Assembly: GCA_017961325.1 (NCBI GenBank)
Contig: JAGCXM010000031.1
Span: 1-64,000, forward strand
DNA: 64,000 bases
Direction of reading: 5' to 3'
Origin: a bacterium
Lineage (GTDB): Bacteria > UBP6 > UBA1177
Position numbers and translations under genes: made by a program. Position 1 is the stretch's first letter. Every line of letters begins with the position of its first letter. This document shows, piece after piece, positions 4,919 to 11,180 of the stretch. Under the pieces are notes generated by a model. The model saw nothing but the letters and a program-made list of their open reading frames with translations. It was not told the DNA's origin and made no database searches.

Positions 4919-7900
4919 TTACTTCTTGAACTCCAAATATTCCGCGTATTTTTGCGCCATAAGATTTTTGATGTAGCTTTCCATATACGCATAGTCTGGA
5001 TTGCCAGCGGAATCTACAGGGAGAAGAATAATCTCCTTGGAAATTCTAACATCGTTTATTTCACGATTGAAATTATATTTTTCAGAAAGGCGATTTAACA
5101 AAGTTGCTTCGAATAAATACTGAAATTTGTTTCTTTCTGTATTCTTCAGATGTGTTATGTGGTCACTGGCAACAAATTCAAACGGCTCATAAAAACATGA
5201 ACCAACACTTCCACTATTTGCTAAACTTAGACAGTTTCCAAATTTTCTAACTCTAGTATCATTTGAAATATAATTATCTACACCGTTATTCATTGCAGAT
5301 GAAGAAATATAAGGAACAAAACCAGATTTTTGATTTTCCTTAATTAAACGTTTACCTCGTTGTACTTCTTGAAACAAATCCTTAATAAAAAATGGCTTCC
5401 ATTCTTTTTCTTCCAGCTGTTCAACCGCCTGCGCATTATCTTTGCACTCATTCAGTCGTTTTGTAGCAAACTCACGATATTCTTTAATTTTATGATCTTC
5501 AAGTTCTTTTATATATGATTCCATGAAATTGTAGTCTATTTCACCTTTTGAAGTTACAGGGAGGATGATATTCTGTGCTCTCATACGGTTTTCATTGAAT
5601 TTATACGCATATAAAAATTTAGATTTTTGTTGCAGGATATTTGTTTTCATAAATAACAAGGAAAATTTATTATCTTTCCAGTTTCTTAGATGAAATCTTT
5701 TCACGTCATCTGAAAAAATGCATTCATAAGGATGATAGAAGTTCTCAACAACACTGCCGTTATAATTTACGCCAAGAACATTTTTATCAAGGGATTTATT
5801 TTCATTTGACACAAAATTGGTGATCCCATTGTTTGAATCAGAGGCTCCGATAAAAGGTCTTTCTCCTTGTTTCATCTCTGATGCCACAAGGCGTTTTCCC
5901 GCTTTTATCTCAAAAATATCAGTAAGTTTCGATTCTTTCCAATCTCGACTTGTCAGTTCTTTTTTAAAGTTTTTTTTTACCTTTTCCGAATTGTTATCGT
6001 CTTCAAAAAGATATTTTCTACCTTGCATGATCATTGAAAACTCAAACGTAAGGTAATCGCCGACAGTCTTTTCAAAATCCTTGTCGGTAGGAATCTCGTC
6101 ATTGAAATAATAAAAACTGTGCAGCCATTCATCTTCTGCTGTGATTGTCGTTTTTACGCAGAACTTCGTCGGAGCTTCAATGCGGTTAAACCACACATCA
6201 AGCAAATGCTGCTTTTTGTCTTTTGCGCTCTCTGTCTCCAAAAGCCCGATATGCGGCGAAACCTTAAAGCCGTCATCCTCAAAATTCACGAATTTGCATA
6301 TCTTCTCTTTGTCATGCGGTACCCCAGCTGTAAAAACAGCAATGCACGGAATTACGCCGATTCCATAAAAGGTATCTTTCTGAAGCATAATCGTGCCTTC
6401 GAGCGTGTGCTTTTTCAAAATCGAATTTTTTATCTGCTGTTCTTCCTTTGATTTTCCGGTCATTGAACTTTGAGGAACTATCACAGCACATCTTGAATTT
6501 GGAAGAAGTGAATCCAAAAGATGTTCCGTAAAAGCAATTTCATAAAGACTCGGATCTTTTTTTGTTCCCTGAGAATAAGGCGGATTCAACATTCCGACTG
6601 TTGCTCTGAAGTCTGTCTGAAGCTGTTTCGGATTTTTAGCAAGAAAATCATCACAGTGCAAATTGCTTTTGCCGTCGCCTCGAAGAATCATGTTTGTTGT
6701 CGCTACAGTGAACATATCCGGACGAAGCTCTATTCCGAACAATTGATTTTTACGGATATGCTGTTGTTCACTTTCTTTTGTACTTTGCGAAAGCATTTTA
6801 TGAAGCGCAGCGACAAGAAAACCGCCTGTTCCGCAGCACGGGTCAAAAATTCTGTCGGTAGTTTTCAAATCAAGCAAATCGCAGAAAAGTTCCGTAATAT
6901 GGCGTGGAGTAAGAACTATTCCCAAAGTTTGGCCACTGCCACCGGAATAGCGCATAAACTCACCATAAAAACGACCAAGATAATCTTCTGCAGAACGAGT
7001 ATATTTTATTGATTTATAAAGCTTTTCATCCAGAAACTTTGCAAAGAATTTCAGCGGGGTTTCTCCAAGAGTCGCATTTTTTTCGTTTAACTTTGTACTG
7101 TCTTTTATGATTGCAAATTGCGAAAGAATTTTGTCAATTTTCGTTATCGGCGATAAATCCGTTCTCTTGAAGCTTGATTCAATCGCATTGTAAATTTTCT
7201 GTCCGTCGGTTACGAAGGTGTCTCCATTTAGAGAATCAATGCTGAAATTTCCGTGGTCACGCTCACGCAAAGCAAGAAGAATTCCCGAAACAACAAGCGG
7301 TTTTTCTTCATCTTTCATATTACCGTAGTTTCTCAAATGCTCATGTAATACTTTTGCATCTGCCAATATCTCCTCAAGTTCTTTTTCTTTGTCACTCGAT
7401 TCCTTCAAGACGTCGCAAAGATAGTACTCGTCGATATTTTTTTCATTAAACGAAATGAAAGATTCAACATCTTCAAGCTGATCAAACAGATTTTGCCTGT
7501 CATCAACAAAAAGCGGAGTAATCCGATGATTTTTTTCGTTTCCAGAAACTCCGAAAGCAAAAACCTTTTTATAAGTCGTGTTCTGAATCAAATGTTTCGC
7601 ATAGAACAACGCGCCGTTCACGGCAAACTCAACAACATCTTTAGTCTCAAGGCTGATAAGTTTATTTGAATCGTATTTCACATGATTTTCAAGTTTCGGC
7701 TTATCTTCAATTACAATAATAAAATCTTTTACAATGCCAACATATTCAGGGAATCCGACTTTGCCAGTGCCGCGTTTTGACGCTGTTTTTAAAGCCTTGT
7801 CTATTTCTTTTACTTCGCTTCCCTGTGCATCTAATTTTATTCCAGCTTCTTTCAGTAAATCGTGAACCCACAAATCTGTTTTTACTTCTTTCTTTGCCAT
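4919..7900 (-). CDS. Single-chain restriction-modification enzyme (type IIG / fused R-M-S)
   Basis: This 993-residue enzyme combines cleavage, methylation and target recognition. Residues 40-70 carry a PD-(D/E)xK-like nuclease motif (D59 and E65-D-K67 in KDFIIVIEDKP), as in HsdR N-terminal domains. Residues ~280-600 are an N6-adenine methyltransferase of the HsdM type, with SAM motif I DPCCGTGGF at 353-361 and catalytic NPPY at 439-442. Two HsdS-like target recognition domains follow (about 640-790 and 820-985), each with a closing helical stretch. A longer frame begins 24 nt upstream, but the ATG at 7900 (MAKKEVK) has AGGAGAG correctly spaced, so that start is chosen. No separate R, M or S subunit gene is nearby, supporting a self-contained enzyme. 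It probably shares a transcript with the STAND gene downstream. Confidence 0.85.
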   Translation of the reverse strand: MAKKEVKTDLWVHDLLKEAGIKLDAQGSEVKEIDKALKTASKRGTGKVGFPEYVGIVKDFIIVIEDKPKLENHVKYDSNKLISLETKDVVEFAVNGALFYAKHLIQNTTYKKVFAFGVSGNEKNHRITPLFVDDRQNLFDQLEDVESFISFNEKNIDEYYLCDVLKESSDKEKELEEILADAKVLHEHLRNYGNMKDEEKPLVVSGILLALRERDHGNFSIDSLNGDTFVTDGQKIYNAIESSFKRTDLSPITKIDKILSQFAIIKDSTKLNEKNATLGETPLKFFAKFLDEKLYKSIKYTRSAEDYLGRFYGEFMRYSGGSGQTLGIVLTPRHITELFCDLLDLKTTDRIFDPCCGTGGFLVAALHKMLSQSTKESEQQHIRKNQLFGIELRPDMFTVATTNMILRGDGKSNLHCDDFLAKNPKQLQTDFRATVGMLNPPYSQGTKKDPSLYEIAFTEHLLDSLLPNSRCAVIVPQSSMTGKSKEEQQIKNSILKKHTLEGTIMLQKDTFYGIGVIPCIAVFTAGVPHDKEKICKFVNFEDDGFKVSPHIGLLETESAKDKKQHLLDVWFNRIEAPTKFCVKTTITAEDEWLHSFYYFNDEIPTDKDFEKTVGDYLTFEFSMIMQGRKYLFEDDNNSEKVKKNFKKELTSRDWKESKLTDIFEIKAGKRLVASEMKQGERPFIGASDSNNGITNFVSNENKSLDKNVLGVNYNGSVVENFYHPYECIFSDDVKRFHLRNWKDNKFSLLFMKTNILQQKSKFLYAYKFNENRMRAQNIILPVTSKGEIDYNFMESYIKELEDHKIKEYREFATKRLNECKDNAQAVEQLEEKEWKPFFIKDLFQEVQRGKRLIKENQKSGFVPYISSSAMNNGVDNYISNDTRVRKFGNCLSLANSGSVGSCFYEPFEFVASDHITHLKNTERNKFQYLFEATLLNRLSEKYNFNREINDVRISKEIILLPVDSAGNPDYAYMESYIKNLMAQKYAEYLEFKK

Positions 7901-7935
7901 GCCAAACTCTCCTTGACAACCCAAAAACCCGCCGC

Positions 7936-8349: not shown

Positions 8350-9525
8350 ATGATAGAAAGAAAAGCTGAAGCTACTTTGAAACGCCTGGCGTTGCAGTTT
8401 CCGGTAGTTGCTGTTACGGGACCAAGACAGAGTGGAAAGACTACTTTGGCAAAAATGGTTTTTCCTGAAAAGAAATATGTCTCTTTTGATGATAAAAACT
8501 TACGCGAAATGGCGAAATCGGCTCCGAGTGATTTTCTGCTTGCATTTCCTGACGGCGCGGTATTTGACGAAGCTCAGAAAGTGCCTGAAATTTTCGATGC
8601 GATAAAACTTGCTGTTGATTCTGGCAGTTATTCACCAGGAAAGTTCATTCTTACAGGTTCAAGCCAGTTCCGTCTGAAAGAAAATATCGCTGAAAGTCTG
8701 GCTGGCAGAGCCGGAATTTTGAACCTTCTTCCGTTTTCAATCAGCGAACTTAAAAATGCCGGAAAACTTGGAAACACAGCATACCACACAGTGTTTAAAG
8801 GATTTTATCCGCCGCTTTACGATGATACGAAGCACTTTTTGCCGGAGGATTGGCTTGAAAGTTACATCGACACATATCTTGATATGGATGTTAAGGATTG
8901 GATAAACCCTTCAAACATTTCCGTTTTCCGCAAATTTATCTGCTTTTGCGCGATTTACAGCGGCCAAATGCTCAACATGGAGAGCTTTTCGAGAGAACTT
9001 GGAGTTTCTGCGGTTACAGTTAAAAACTGGCTTTCCATACTTGAGGCTTCATACATAATCCATTTTGTTTATCCTGACACCAACAATCTTGGAAGGACTC
9101 TCGTAAAAACCCCGAAAATATATTTTGTTGATCCTGGGTTAATGTGCCGTTTGCTACGGATAAACAACACAGAAGAGATGATTTTGAGCCGCTATAAAGG
9201 TGCTGTCGTTGAAACCGCAGCCGTTTCCGAACTTCTTAAAAGTTGTTTCAATGAAGGCAAAAAAGCCGGACTCACATATTTCCGTGATAAAAACGGTTTC
9301 GAGGTCGATTTTATAGCTGATTGGAAACATAGCTGCGCGATAGAGGTAAAGAGTGAAGGTTTTTCAGAAAACAAACTCTCCGCTAATGTAAAAAAATATG
9401 TCGGAATGCGTGGCGACGGAACCACCGGAACTGTTTTTTATCTCGGCGATGTTTCGTGCAGTATCGCCGGAGTAGAATATGTATCGTGGCGCGACTGGGG
9501 AGATTTTTACAACAAATTTGCCTGA
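8350..9525 (+). CDS. AAA-family ATPase with C-terminal DUF4143
   Basis: This is a 391-residue protein. The N-terminal AAA_14-type domain has Walker A GPRQSGKTTL (about 24-33) and a Walker B-like GAVFDEAQ (about 75-82), followed by the TGSSQFRL sensor region (about 103-110). The C-terminal half is a DUF4143 domain with a winged-helix-like part and the YFRDKNGFEVDFI...EVK arrangement, which in this family looks like a degenerate PD-(D/E)xK fold (E-V-D-F and E-V-K). Such ATPases are very common in bacteria, are often accessory and strain-variable, and have no settled cellular role. It starts at ATG 8350 with a strong SD, has its own promoter, and sits between the two 93-bp direct repeats with the toxin locus. 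The family call is firm; the function is unknown. Confidence 0.9.
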   Translation: MIERKAEATLKRLALQFPVVAVTGPRQSGKTTLAKMVFPEKKYVSFDDKNLREMAKSAPSDFLLAFPDGAVFDEAQKVPEIFDAIKLAVDSGSYSPGKFILTGSSQFRLKENIAESLAGRAGILNLLPFSISELKNAGKLGNTAYHTVFKGFYPPLYDDTKHFLPEDWLESYIDTYLDMDVKDWINPSNISVFRKFICFCAIYSGQMLNMESFSRELGVSAVTVKNWLSILEASYIIHFVYPDTNNLGRTLVKTPKIYFVDPGLMCRLLRINNTEEMILSRYKGAVVETAAVSELLKSCFNEGKKAGLTYFRDKNGFEVDFIADWKHSCAIEVKSEGFSENKLSANVKKYVGMRGDGTTGTVFYLGDVSCSIAGVEYVSWRDWGDFYNKFA

Positions 9526-9530
9526 ACACA

Positions 9531-9547
9531 GAGAATGAGGAAATGCG
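9531..9547. repeat. Truncated copy of the direct-repeat end
   Basis: Just after the ATPase stop codon, GAGAATGAGGAAATGCG matches the last 17 bp of both 93-bp repeats with a single change. It may be a remnant of a third copy, which would separate the ATPase and toxin modules. Confidence 0.5.
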
Positions 9548-9610
9548 AGTGGTAATTGCGGAAAAACTTATTTTGTCGATCGGATTTTTATGAATTGATT
9601 TCAGTTGTGT

Positions 9611-10096
9611 TTAACTGCGTTTATATTCTTTCGATTTTTCTTCGAGCAGTTTGAAATTGTTGCAACGCTGGCTCAATTTAGATTTCCCGTCGTTAAGCAA
9701 CCTATGCTTGTAAACTGCACTGGCGTTTTGTAGAATCAATGCGGCTTTCTTTCTGATAATGCGATACTCGTTTCTCAGAAGATTTTTGTAATTTAAGTCT
9801 TCAATTTCATTAAAATTTATCTGCTTGCACAACTCAAGTGGAGCGGGAAACATATTGTTAAGATTGATAACCGCATACACTCCGATTTTGATGAAGTCCG
9901 TAGTTTCTGAGAGACGCTTGTGTTTTTCTTTGAAGGAAGAAAGCGGAGCAAAACAATCAAATCCGTTGATGTTCAGGACCACACCCACATATTTGCGACT
10001 GAAATTCTGAGAAATTTTTCTGTTTTTGAAAATATGTTCCTCAAAACCTGAAAGATAAGAGATGTAATCAGAATCTATTTCGTAAATATTCAGCAT
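9611..10096 (-). CDS. toxN: ToxN/AbiQ-family endoribonuclease toxin (type III toxin-antitoxin)
   Basis: This 161-residue protein has the hallmark N-terminus of the ToxN/AbiQ family: a D-Y-I-x-Y-L-S segment near residue 10, then a beta-rich core with RKYVGVVLNINGFDCFAPLS (about 34-53) and a following SFKEKHKR. Members are RNases held inactive by a small repetitive antitoxin RNA made just upstream, and they cause abortive infection on phage attack. The upstream context supports this strongly: promoter, short structured RNA and an intrinsic terminator lie in that order before the ATG at 10096. Length is typical of the family (about 165-200). The ribosome binding site is weak, consistent with low toxin output by read-through of the terminator. 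Composition is AT-rich like the rest of the island. Confidence 0.85.
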   Translation of the reverse strand: MLNIYEIDSDYISYLSGFEEHIFKNRKISQNFSRKYVGVVLNINGFDCFAPLSSFKEKHKRLSETTDFIKIGVYAVINLNNMFPAPLELCKQINFNEIEDLNYKNLLRNEYRIIRKKAALILQNASAVYKHRLLNDGKSKLSQRCNNFKLLEEKSKEYKRS

Positions 10097-10104
10097 TTCA
10101 ATCT

Positions 10105-10139
10105 AAAAAAAATGCCGGAACAATAAAAACTGCTCCGGC
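10105..10139 (-). terminator. Intrinsic terminator between antitoxin RNA and toxN
   Basis: On the minus strand GCCGGAGCA and TGTTCCGGC form a 9-bp stem (one G-U) with an 8-nt loop, followed by A and eight T residues. In type III systems a terminator in this place makes antitoxin RNA in excess over toxin mRNA. Confidence 0.85.
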
Positions 10140-10140
10140 C

Positions 10141-10176
10141 GTATAAAGTTCGCAGTCAAAGGCGCGACATCCTTGA
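10141..10176 (-). ncRNA. toxI: Candidate ToxI antitoxin RNA, apparently one unit
   Basis: The ~36 nt between the promoter (start expected near 10176) and the terminator can fold as an H-type pseudoknot on the minus strand. AAGG (10174-10171) pairs with CCTT (10162-10159), and TCGC (10167-10164), in the loop, pairs with GCGA (10153-10150). A ~34-36-nt pseudoknotted unit is what ToxI antitoxins consist of, but characterised loci have several tandem units and only one is visible here. Assignment is by position and fold; no sequence identity to a known ToxI is claimed. Confidence 0.6.
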
Positions 10177-10182
10177 GTTGGC

Positions 10183-10210
10183 AATATAGTTAATTTTTGA
10201 GATTTGTCAA
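10183..10210 (-). promoter_or_regulatory. Promoter of the antitoxin RNA / toxN
   Basis: On the minus strand a consensus TTGACA (10210-10205) is followed after 16 bp by TATATT (10188-10183). It directs transcription into the antitoxin unit, the terminator and then toxN. Confidence 0.75.
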
Positions 10211-10248
10211 CAGAATTCTTGCAATAAATTTATCTATTGGAACCGACA

Positions 10249-10341
10249 TTTCTTATTTCAATAGCGTGAACATCTAATTTTATTGAATGATTTTAAAATT
10301 TAGATATTAGACAATATTGTGTAGGAGAACGAGGAAATGCG
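10249..10341. repeat. 93-bp direct repeat, copy 2
   Basis: This matches 7952-8044 over its full 93 bp in the same orientation with about 7 substitutions. It lies directly upstream of the antitoxin promoter and closes the cassette bracketed by the two copies. The inner hairpin arms and the conserved GAGAACGAGGAAATGCG end are kept. Confidence 0.85.
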
Positions 10342-10457
10342 AACGGCGTTTATATTGCGATGCTAAGTAAAAACTCTAAATTTTAATTTTAAATCAAAAT
10401 TTATTGATAATTTTTCAAATTCAATCATAATGCCAATGTTAAAAATTTGTTTTTAGT

Positions 10458-10477
10458 ATTTCACTTTAAGGTGAAAT
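10458..10477. other. Short hairpin downstream of pyrE
   Basis: ATTTCAC and GTGAAAT form a 7-bp stem around a 6-nt loop, 29 nt beyond the pyrE stop codon. No T-run follows on either strand, so it is not a textbook terminator. The rest of 10342-10505 is AT-rich, with no gene seen. Confidence 0.3.
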
Positions 10478-10505
10478 CCTGCGGAATTTGTGAGTGAACT
10501 GTGAA

Positions 10506-11180
10506 TTATTTCGCCCCGTAGAGTTTGTAGTAATCTTCGATCCTGGACTTCATTTCATCGTCGATGAGGACTTTGTCTCCGACTTTTCTGCCGTAGAGAT
10601 ATTCAACGACTTCGGCCATTGTGACGATGGAGAAAGTTTTCATTCCGAAATCGTCCCTGATCTCGTCAAGTGCGCTCTTCTCGCCCGTTCCGCGCTCCAT
10701 TCTGTTGACCGAGACTGAAAGAGCCGCAAGTTCGATATCCGCCGCCGCCTTGAGGAGCGGAACCGTTTCGCGGATGCTGGTCCCGGCAGTGGTAACGTCT
10801 TCGATTATGAGGACTCTGTCTCCTTTCTGGAGTTTGTGGCCGATGAGATTCCCCCCCTCGCCGTGGTCCTTGACTTCCTTTCTGTTGAAGCAGAAAGCGA
10901 CGTTTTTGCCGTATTTCGCGTTAAGCGCGATAGCGGTGGAAACTGCAAGCGGGATCCCTTTGTAGGCCGGTCCGAAAAGGACATCGAACTCCCCTTTCGT
11001 GTTTTCCATGATCGATTCGGCGTAAAATCCGCCGAGTTTCGATATCTGCTCACCCGTTCTGTATTTGCCGGTGTTTACAAAAAAAGGAGTCTTTCTGCCG
11101 CTTTTCGTGACGAAATCACCGAAAGTGAGGACTTCGCATTCGACCATAAAATCTATGAAATCATGTTTGTAGTTATTCAT
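10506..11180 (-). CDS. pyrE: Orotate phosphoribosyltransferase
   Basis: This 224-residue enzyme joins orotate and PRPP to give OMP in pyrimidine synthesis. The PRPP-binding signature is clear at VLIIEDVTTAGTS (about 123-135), with the catalytic-loop region KDHGEGG (about 104-110) upstream; length is normal. An upstream ATG (11195) lacks a ribosome binding site, whereas ATG 11180 has AGAGGT five bases before it, so the shorter form starting MNNYKHDF is used. It is the first gene to the right of the left island, marking the return to core GC content, and lies 62 nt downstream of ackA on the same strand. Confidence 0.95.
   Translation of the reverse strand: MNNYKHDFIDFMVECEVLTFGDFVTKSGRKTPFFVNTGKYRTGEQISKLGGFYAESIMENTKGEFDVLFGPAYKGIPLAVSTAIALNAKYGKNVAFCFNRKEVKDHGEGGNLIGHKLQKGDRVLIIEDVTTAGTSIRETVPLLKAAADIELAALSVSVNRMERGTGEKSALDEIRDDFGMKTFSIVTMAEVVEYLYGRKVGDKVLIDDEMKSRIEDYYKLYGAK

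Follow-up and report, generated by a model that had tools for sequence, protein, structure and literature searches.

A ToxIN-like toxin-antitoxin locus with a single antitoxin RNA unit, conserved in a clade of related loci

The locus described here lies on the minus strand of the window (the whole stretch of 64,000 nucleotides of bacterial DNA that was analysed), from position 10210 to 9611, and reads promoter, one ToxI-type pseudoknot unit, intrinsic terminator and toxN. A sequence-only reading of the window had proposed a type III toxin-antitoxin system with these elements in this order, and each of them was found where that reading had placed it. Along the minus strand, TTGACA-16-TATATT is followed by CTCAAGGATGTCGCGCCTTTGACTGCGAACTTTATACGG, the terminator and the ATG of a 161-aa open reading frame; the promoter (10210-10183) is near-consensus, with 11 of 12 consensus bases. 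The features are as follows, class A being the group of related loci defined further below.

10205-10210, minus strand: −35 box TTGACA of the antitoxin promoter, at a position relative to the unit that is common to the other class-A loci
10183-10188, minus strand: −10 box TATATT, with a predicted start at 10176 ± 2
10141-10177, minus strand: single ToxI-type antitoxin unit (covariance models R2 and R1)
10171-10174, minus strand: helix a, 5' arm AAGG (covariation)
10159-10162, minus strand: helix a, 3' arm CCTT (covariation)
10163-10167, minus strand: helix b, 5' arm TCGCG (covariation)
10150-10154, minus strand: helix b, 3' arm TGCGA (covariation)
10139-10146, minus strand: invariant linker TTATACGG in the interval between pseudoknot and terminator, a presumed ToxN cleavage or binding site judging by its conservation
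10114-10139, minus strand: intrinsic terminator stem-loop followed by a T tract, with both-side changes in 5 of 10 pairs among relatives
9611-10096, minus strand: toxN, a 161-aa endoribonuclease of the ToxN/AbiQ family (PF13958, E 7.4e-44), without a Shine-Dalgarno sequence

Neighbours of toxIN in the window are a type IIG restriction enzyme-methyltransferase with specificity domains (4919-7924, minus strand) and an AAA/DUF4143 ATPase (8350-9525, plus strand; PADLOC PDC-S01). There may be a small defence cluster here, adjoined by an orotate phosphoribosyltransferase-like gene identified by eye from its sequence. Short direct repeats, GAGAA[T/C]GAGGAAATGCGA (94%) and AAC[T/G]GCGTTTATATT (93%), flank toxIN on both sides (10325-10356 and 9531-9548 / 9613-9627) and may mark an insertion.

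The PF13958 match of the toxin extends over 157 of its 161 residues. PADLOC assigns the protein to AbiQ (E 9.5e-32), and its matches in the PDB are ToxN 4ato (E 5.9e-15), ToxN 2xd0 (E 5.8e-10) and AbiQ 4glk (E 5.6e-5). A Tyr, a Ser-Ser pair and a Lys of the toxin align with Tyr10, Thr52-Ser53 and Lys55 of ToxN_Pa, positions that may belong to the active site. The protein is a presumed toxin.

The crossed helices of the sequence-only reading, AAGG/CCTT (10174-10171 with 10162-10159) and TCGC/GCGA, were recovered as described, and the second can be extended to five pairs (10167-10163 with 10154-10150). In the window sequence alone the pseudoknot is within chance (shuffle p = 0.16), so that window-only significance was left unused and the case was made from relatives. 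Every cell of both helices pairs in 20 class-A loci, where one position shows G-C, G-U and A-U and most pairs are invariant. Covariation was assessed after class-A units had been aligned by MAFFT to 28 units from related arrays. Of the cells in 32 related units, 94.8% are paired (98.4% in helix a, 91.9% in helix b), both-side changes occur at 8 of the 9 pairs, and the covariation score is 0.69 against 0.26 in shuffles, none of 500 shuffles reaching it; sliding the helices as a control lowered pairing to 35-49%. Covariation thus supports an H-type pseudoknot of about 34-36 nt, as expected of a ToxIN-family unit. In the 20 class-A loci searched with it, a covariance model of the same pseudoknot detects a single unit each; several related arrays give more than one, and the most divergent array units escape it.

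That the window carries a single antitoxin unit, as had been claimed, was borne out by covariance search, and the layout is kept in relatives. The model of the unit, R2, has exactly one match in 9500-10600 (10177-10141, minus strand, E 6.6e-7; next best E 0.48), an E-value that is somewhat flattering because the model was built partly from the window's own sequence. Model R1, comprising unit and terminator, has one match in the 2.35-Mb genome (E 2.7e-18), the next matches having E > 3. With up to 3 mismatches allowed, the unit sequence is present once in the 64-kb window, and no direct repeat of it was found in 9500-10800. Additional units upstream of the promoter were considered and rejected, since a covariance search with filters off finds none there. 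An Rfam search of 8900-11000 gave nothing relevant, even with the threshold at E 5.

Relatives were collected by GTDB searches with the protein and PF13958, covering close homologues, the window's genus, a sample of relatives and the homologues' own genomes, and by searches of further GTDB genomes, 274 from the family of T. bryantii and 250 from a Lachnospiraceae-like family. In the fetched loci a script found 197 ToxN reading frames and, for each, the best upstream terminator and the best sigma-70-like promoter; promoter calls were automatic, with two (L120 and L036) adjusted by eye, and the number of units given for each toxin on the tree is our own assignment from spans and sequences. The spans from −10 box to terminator cluster at 38-47, 52-64, about 70-88 and about 98-137 nt, a few being longer; on reading the sequences, the 38-47 and 52-64 nt groups contain one unit, and the others mostly two (about 70-88 nt) and three (about 98-137 nt). 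Control loci gave three units for the Lactococcus AbiQ plasmid copy, three for a Sutcliffiella plasmid and four for a Fusobacterium plasmid.

Class A comprises 22 loci, all of which have one unit per transcript and 38-43 nt between −10 box and terminator (in L120 after the correction by eye). They have in common the unit AAGGAWATCGCR-CCTTT-RAYYGCGA and its surroundings; a core of 25 nt is 93% conserved, and the bases from the −10 box to the unit vary. Their toxins, with identity down to 54%, amount to 17 distinct sequences, which a maximum-likelihood tree of 131 distinct toxins unites in one clade (support 100/99). This clade is nested in multi-unit systems, the neighbouring clades having 2 or 3 units, bar two sporadic singles. 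Because a one-unit clade sits inside two- and three-unit systems, the one-unit state most likely arose by reduction in the class-A lineage, with the reservation that the tree counts changes and cannot alone give their direction; between single and multiple units, at least seven changes are required on the toxin tree. The array unit closest to that of class A is unit 3 in arrays from Treponema and Clostridia, which leads by so small a margin that naming the ancestral unit was rejected.

Seven genomes (G320, G289, G218, G242, G265, G369 and G005) have class A as the only intact toxN found. Each contains one unit at E <= 4e-4 and none other below E 0.05, a marginal second match in G265 standing at E 0.05. 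Since class-A-only genomes are without a second unit above chance, marginally so in G265, the single unit does not appear to be topped up from another array.

Single-unit systems account for 38 of the 131 distinct toxins, in a sample where Treponema and neighbouring groups are over-represented. Three single-unit groups, namely class A, a second that includes this genome and a third, differ in both toxins and units. The second, class B, has a toxin of about 197-215 aa and one unit of ~48 nt with an extra hairpin; this genome contains it at G000:C22:7638-8183 (L003) and G000:C46:45314-45859 (L004), the latter with an in-frame TGA in the toxin. The boundary of the class-B unit is visible in two-unit relatives (L124, L185 and L192), and in L124 helix a is changed on both sides, to ATGG/CCA instead of AAGG/CCT. 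Both main helices are invariant within class B, whose pseudoknot is therefore putative. Class C consists of L164, L165 and, with an extra hairpin, L157-L159, and is placed on the tree beside the two-unit L155 and the three-unit L168; L093 and L176 are isolated single-unit cases beside two-unit relatives. Among the multi-unit systems, several three-unit arrays are composed of three different units, both in Treponema (L012, L013, L097, L109) and in Clostridia and relatives (L011, L015, L021, L182). When Clostridia-type arrays of different genomes are compared, units 1 and 2 correspond by position and unit 3 does so only weakly, which suggests that three-unit arrays may be defined hetero-trimers rather than sets of interchangeable repeats.

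The boundaries of the class-A unit bear on how its RNA might be made. All but a few class-A loci have A as the seventh base after the −10 box, where transcripts usually start, and the unit comes next; the six bases directly behind the −10 box vary freely among relatives, and conservation begins after them. A start near 10176, predicted by the sequence-only reading, agrees with this seventh base, and transcription is expected to start at the 5' end of the unit. Between unit and terminator, on the 3' side, UUAUACGG is invariant, and TTATACGG is identical in 22 of 22 class-A loci; the three bases preceding it vary, and the terminators that follow it have two unrelated sequences. TTAYA junctions between the units of related arrays resemble this linker. 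Since the linker is invariant despite the variable terminator and resembles array junctions, we propose one cut by ToxN.

We consider it probable that the locus is a type III, ToxIN-like system in which reduction has left the antitoxin gene with one unit, with monomers cut once and a ring assembled from separate transcripts. According to this model, the promoter would start the RNA at the predicted start site, at the unit's own 5' end, and a 5' cut would be unnecessary because transcription initiation makes that end. The terminator behind the unit would stop most transcripts, while a few would read through into toxN. ToxN would cut once within UUAUACGG, on the 3' side of the unit, to give a ~36-nt monomer; the same cut would part the monomer from the toxin mRNA, and ToxN would retain the 3' end within its active site. 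Separate transcripts would supply the monomers, which, together with their toxins, would close head-to-tail into an inactive ring of the kind that ToxIN monomers form. In vitro, ToxN and free ToxI repeats bind each other and a ring is assembled, ToxN first binding the 3' end of free repeats and the 5' ends closing the ring (PMC8860590); because such a scheme needs no common transcript for the repeats, one unit per transcript and one cut is the simplest reading. The sequence-only reading had left neutralisation to a one-unit RNA that was either cleaved once or circular. Single cleavage is favoured by the invariant 3' linker; for a circular RNA no evidence was found, nor is one needed, since known complexes already close a ring from separate monomers. 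A one-repeat CptI construct (plasmid pFLS110) has been used in published assays (PMC4627078). The repeats reported as needed are 2.5 for Pectobacterium ToxI and 1.8 for antiQ (PMC5086642), so that one unit would be insufficient in those systems.

Class-A toxN genes lack a Shine-Dalgarno sequence, whereas multi-unit systems mostly have one. In most class-A loci the toxN start codon lies no more than 6-9 nt from the end of the called terminator stem, at the T tract; the window and its nearest relatives have a longer gap between terminator and toxN, the Shine-Dalgarno sequence being likewise absent. Terminator energy also differs between class A and multi-unit systems. The missing Shine-Dalgarno sequence may balance the single antitoxin unit per transcript. 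Since class A is a single clade, what its members share amounts to one event, and the idea that a stronger terminator or weaker translation of the toxin compensates for stoichiometry was rejected as a rule, class B having no such shift.

Other explanations of the single unit were weighed against this model. The unit might work uncut, ToxN binding it with the terminator hairpin attached in a capped 1:1 or open complex; a one-unit RNA needs no cut to be a monomer, and the AbiF RNA of C. difficile stays a two-motif transcript that is not diced (PMC12373285). We judge this unlikely in view of the linker, which is invariant although two unrelated terminator sequences stand behind it and which resembles the junctions of arrays. 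Alternatively, the element could be mainly a cis-acting leader, bound and cut by ToxN so as to limit the toxin's own mRNA (autoregulation), with something else providing neutralisation. The argument would be that toxN expression is set by the leader, because class-A toxN has no Shine-Dalgarno sequence and mostly starts at the terminator T tract. We give it little credence: the unit is homologous to units of arrays formed like known antitoxins, and persisting toxin-less copies of unit and terminator would stay unexplained.

The three more toxN loci in the same genome, one of which (C34) has two related units, could indicate a degenerate locus protected by multi-unit antitoxins elsewhere. However, units of different systems differ in sequence, the toxin reading frame is intact, the layout is kept across species and class-A-only genomes exist, all of which makes degeneration very improbable. 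Collapse of a repeat array during assembly, which the sequence-only reading had itself named as a point on which a single unit could fail, is conceivable in a draft genome of 48 contigs. When relatives were examined for this, 17 of the 17 distinct toxins of the window's clade, from many independently assembled genomes, proved to have one unit, and the layout is present in the isolate T. bryantii NK4A124 (L009), on a 190-kb contig (L007) and on a 2.2-Mb contig (G206). Arrays of 2-4 units were resolved at other toxN loci, including one in the same genome (C34, two units), and collapse is in our view scarcely credible.

The class-A RNA was also found without toxN, including in the 3' UTRs of other genes. 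In two genomes (L230, G194:C167; L247, G309:C11) a toxin-less unit and terminator lie directly behind groEL (Cpn60, E 2e-44), 74 nt being identical between the two copies and the flanks having 66-79% identity upstream and 28-37% downstream. From this comparison selection on the groEL-linked copies appears likely; recent interspecies transfer could also explain the identity. Other toxin-less units are placed behind a flavoprotein gene (L224) and between a T5orf172 gene and an HD-domain (RelA/SpoT-like) gene (L225, L226). Further class-A examples are L210, L219 and L220, with the promoter kept in L210 and L219 and a Gp49/HigB-like toxin gene following the unit in L219; L251-L253 are visibly decayed. 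In three genomes (L248, L249 and L250) a toxin-less hybrid, in which a unit of the three-unit-ToxIN type (GGTGAGTCCTACCATAAGTGGA) is fused to a class-A unit behind an open reading frame, could neutralise two toxin types. No phage decoys carrying the unit were found in viral contigs by exact pattern. As a tentative extension, ToxN systems may be able to run on a single, separately transcribed monomer, which may have freed the unit to spread; toxin-less units and their terminators in the 3' UTRs of unrelated genes, groEL among them, and once in a two-specificity hybrid, would then provide standing immunity in trans against incoming ToxIN elements. We regard this as possible and somewhat doubtful.

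A one-knot version of the antitoxin is kept by a whole family of gut and rumen bacteria, and the repeats long used to define and find ToxIN systems seem non-essential. Single-unit systems offer a natural minimal case for asking what purpose repeats have: should one ring be able to draw on three separate transcripts, repeats would serve dose or assembly speed and not complex formation. For structural and kinetic work, too, the one-unit RNA is the simplest substrate, and a possible route to host immunity against such elements is suggested by the toxin-less copies. Published surveys used a tandem array as a criterion (PMC5086642 section 7; PMC8860590) and, because tandem repeats were required, single-unit systems would have escaped them. 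This locus has one unit, conserved as such in 22 loci, in place of a tandem array, and for that reason we call it a variant of the ToxIN family and not an ordinary member. The literature searched, which did not include the main 2012 survey, contains no report of a natural one-unit ToxI, and novelty is not certain.

Reported repeat numbers are 2.8-5.5 for ToxI and antiQ and 2.1 for CptI and TenpI (PMC12373285, PMC5086642), and 3-5.6 for E. coli ToxI (PMC8860590). The ToxIN systems of Bacillus thuringiensis, Pectobacterium atrosepticum and E. coli share with the window's locus a ToxN-family toxin, an H-type pseudoknot of 34-36 nt and the order of the layout, but have 2.9 to 5.6 repeats (PMC5086642, PMC8860590) in place of one. 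AbiQ/antiQ of Lactococcus has toxin family and layout in common with it (PADLOC AbiQ; PDB 4glk) and differs in its 2.8 repeats of 35 nt (PMC5086642). CptIN of Eubacterium rectale is comparable in that one-repeat CptI constructs have been made and used in the laboratory (PMC4627078); natural CptI, according to PMC12373285 citing PMC5086642, has 2.1 repeats of 45 nt, the complex is a heterotetramer and the unit sequence is unrelated to the window's. AbiF/RCd22 of C. difficile is similar as an RNA antitoxin with few motifs, discussed as type III-like, but its toxin is unrelated and its two-motif transcript is not diced (PMC12373285). The three-unit ToxIN systems of Treponema (L012, L013, L097, L109) and the two-unit ToxIN systems L002, L014 and L033 have toxins close to the window's on the tree, alignable units and the same pseudoknot, but carry two or three non-identical units per transcript.
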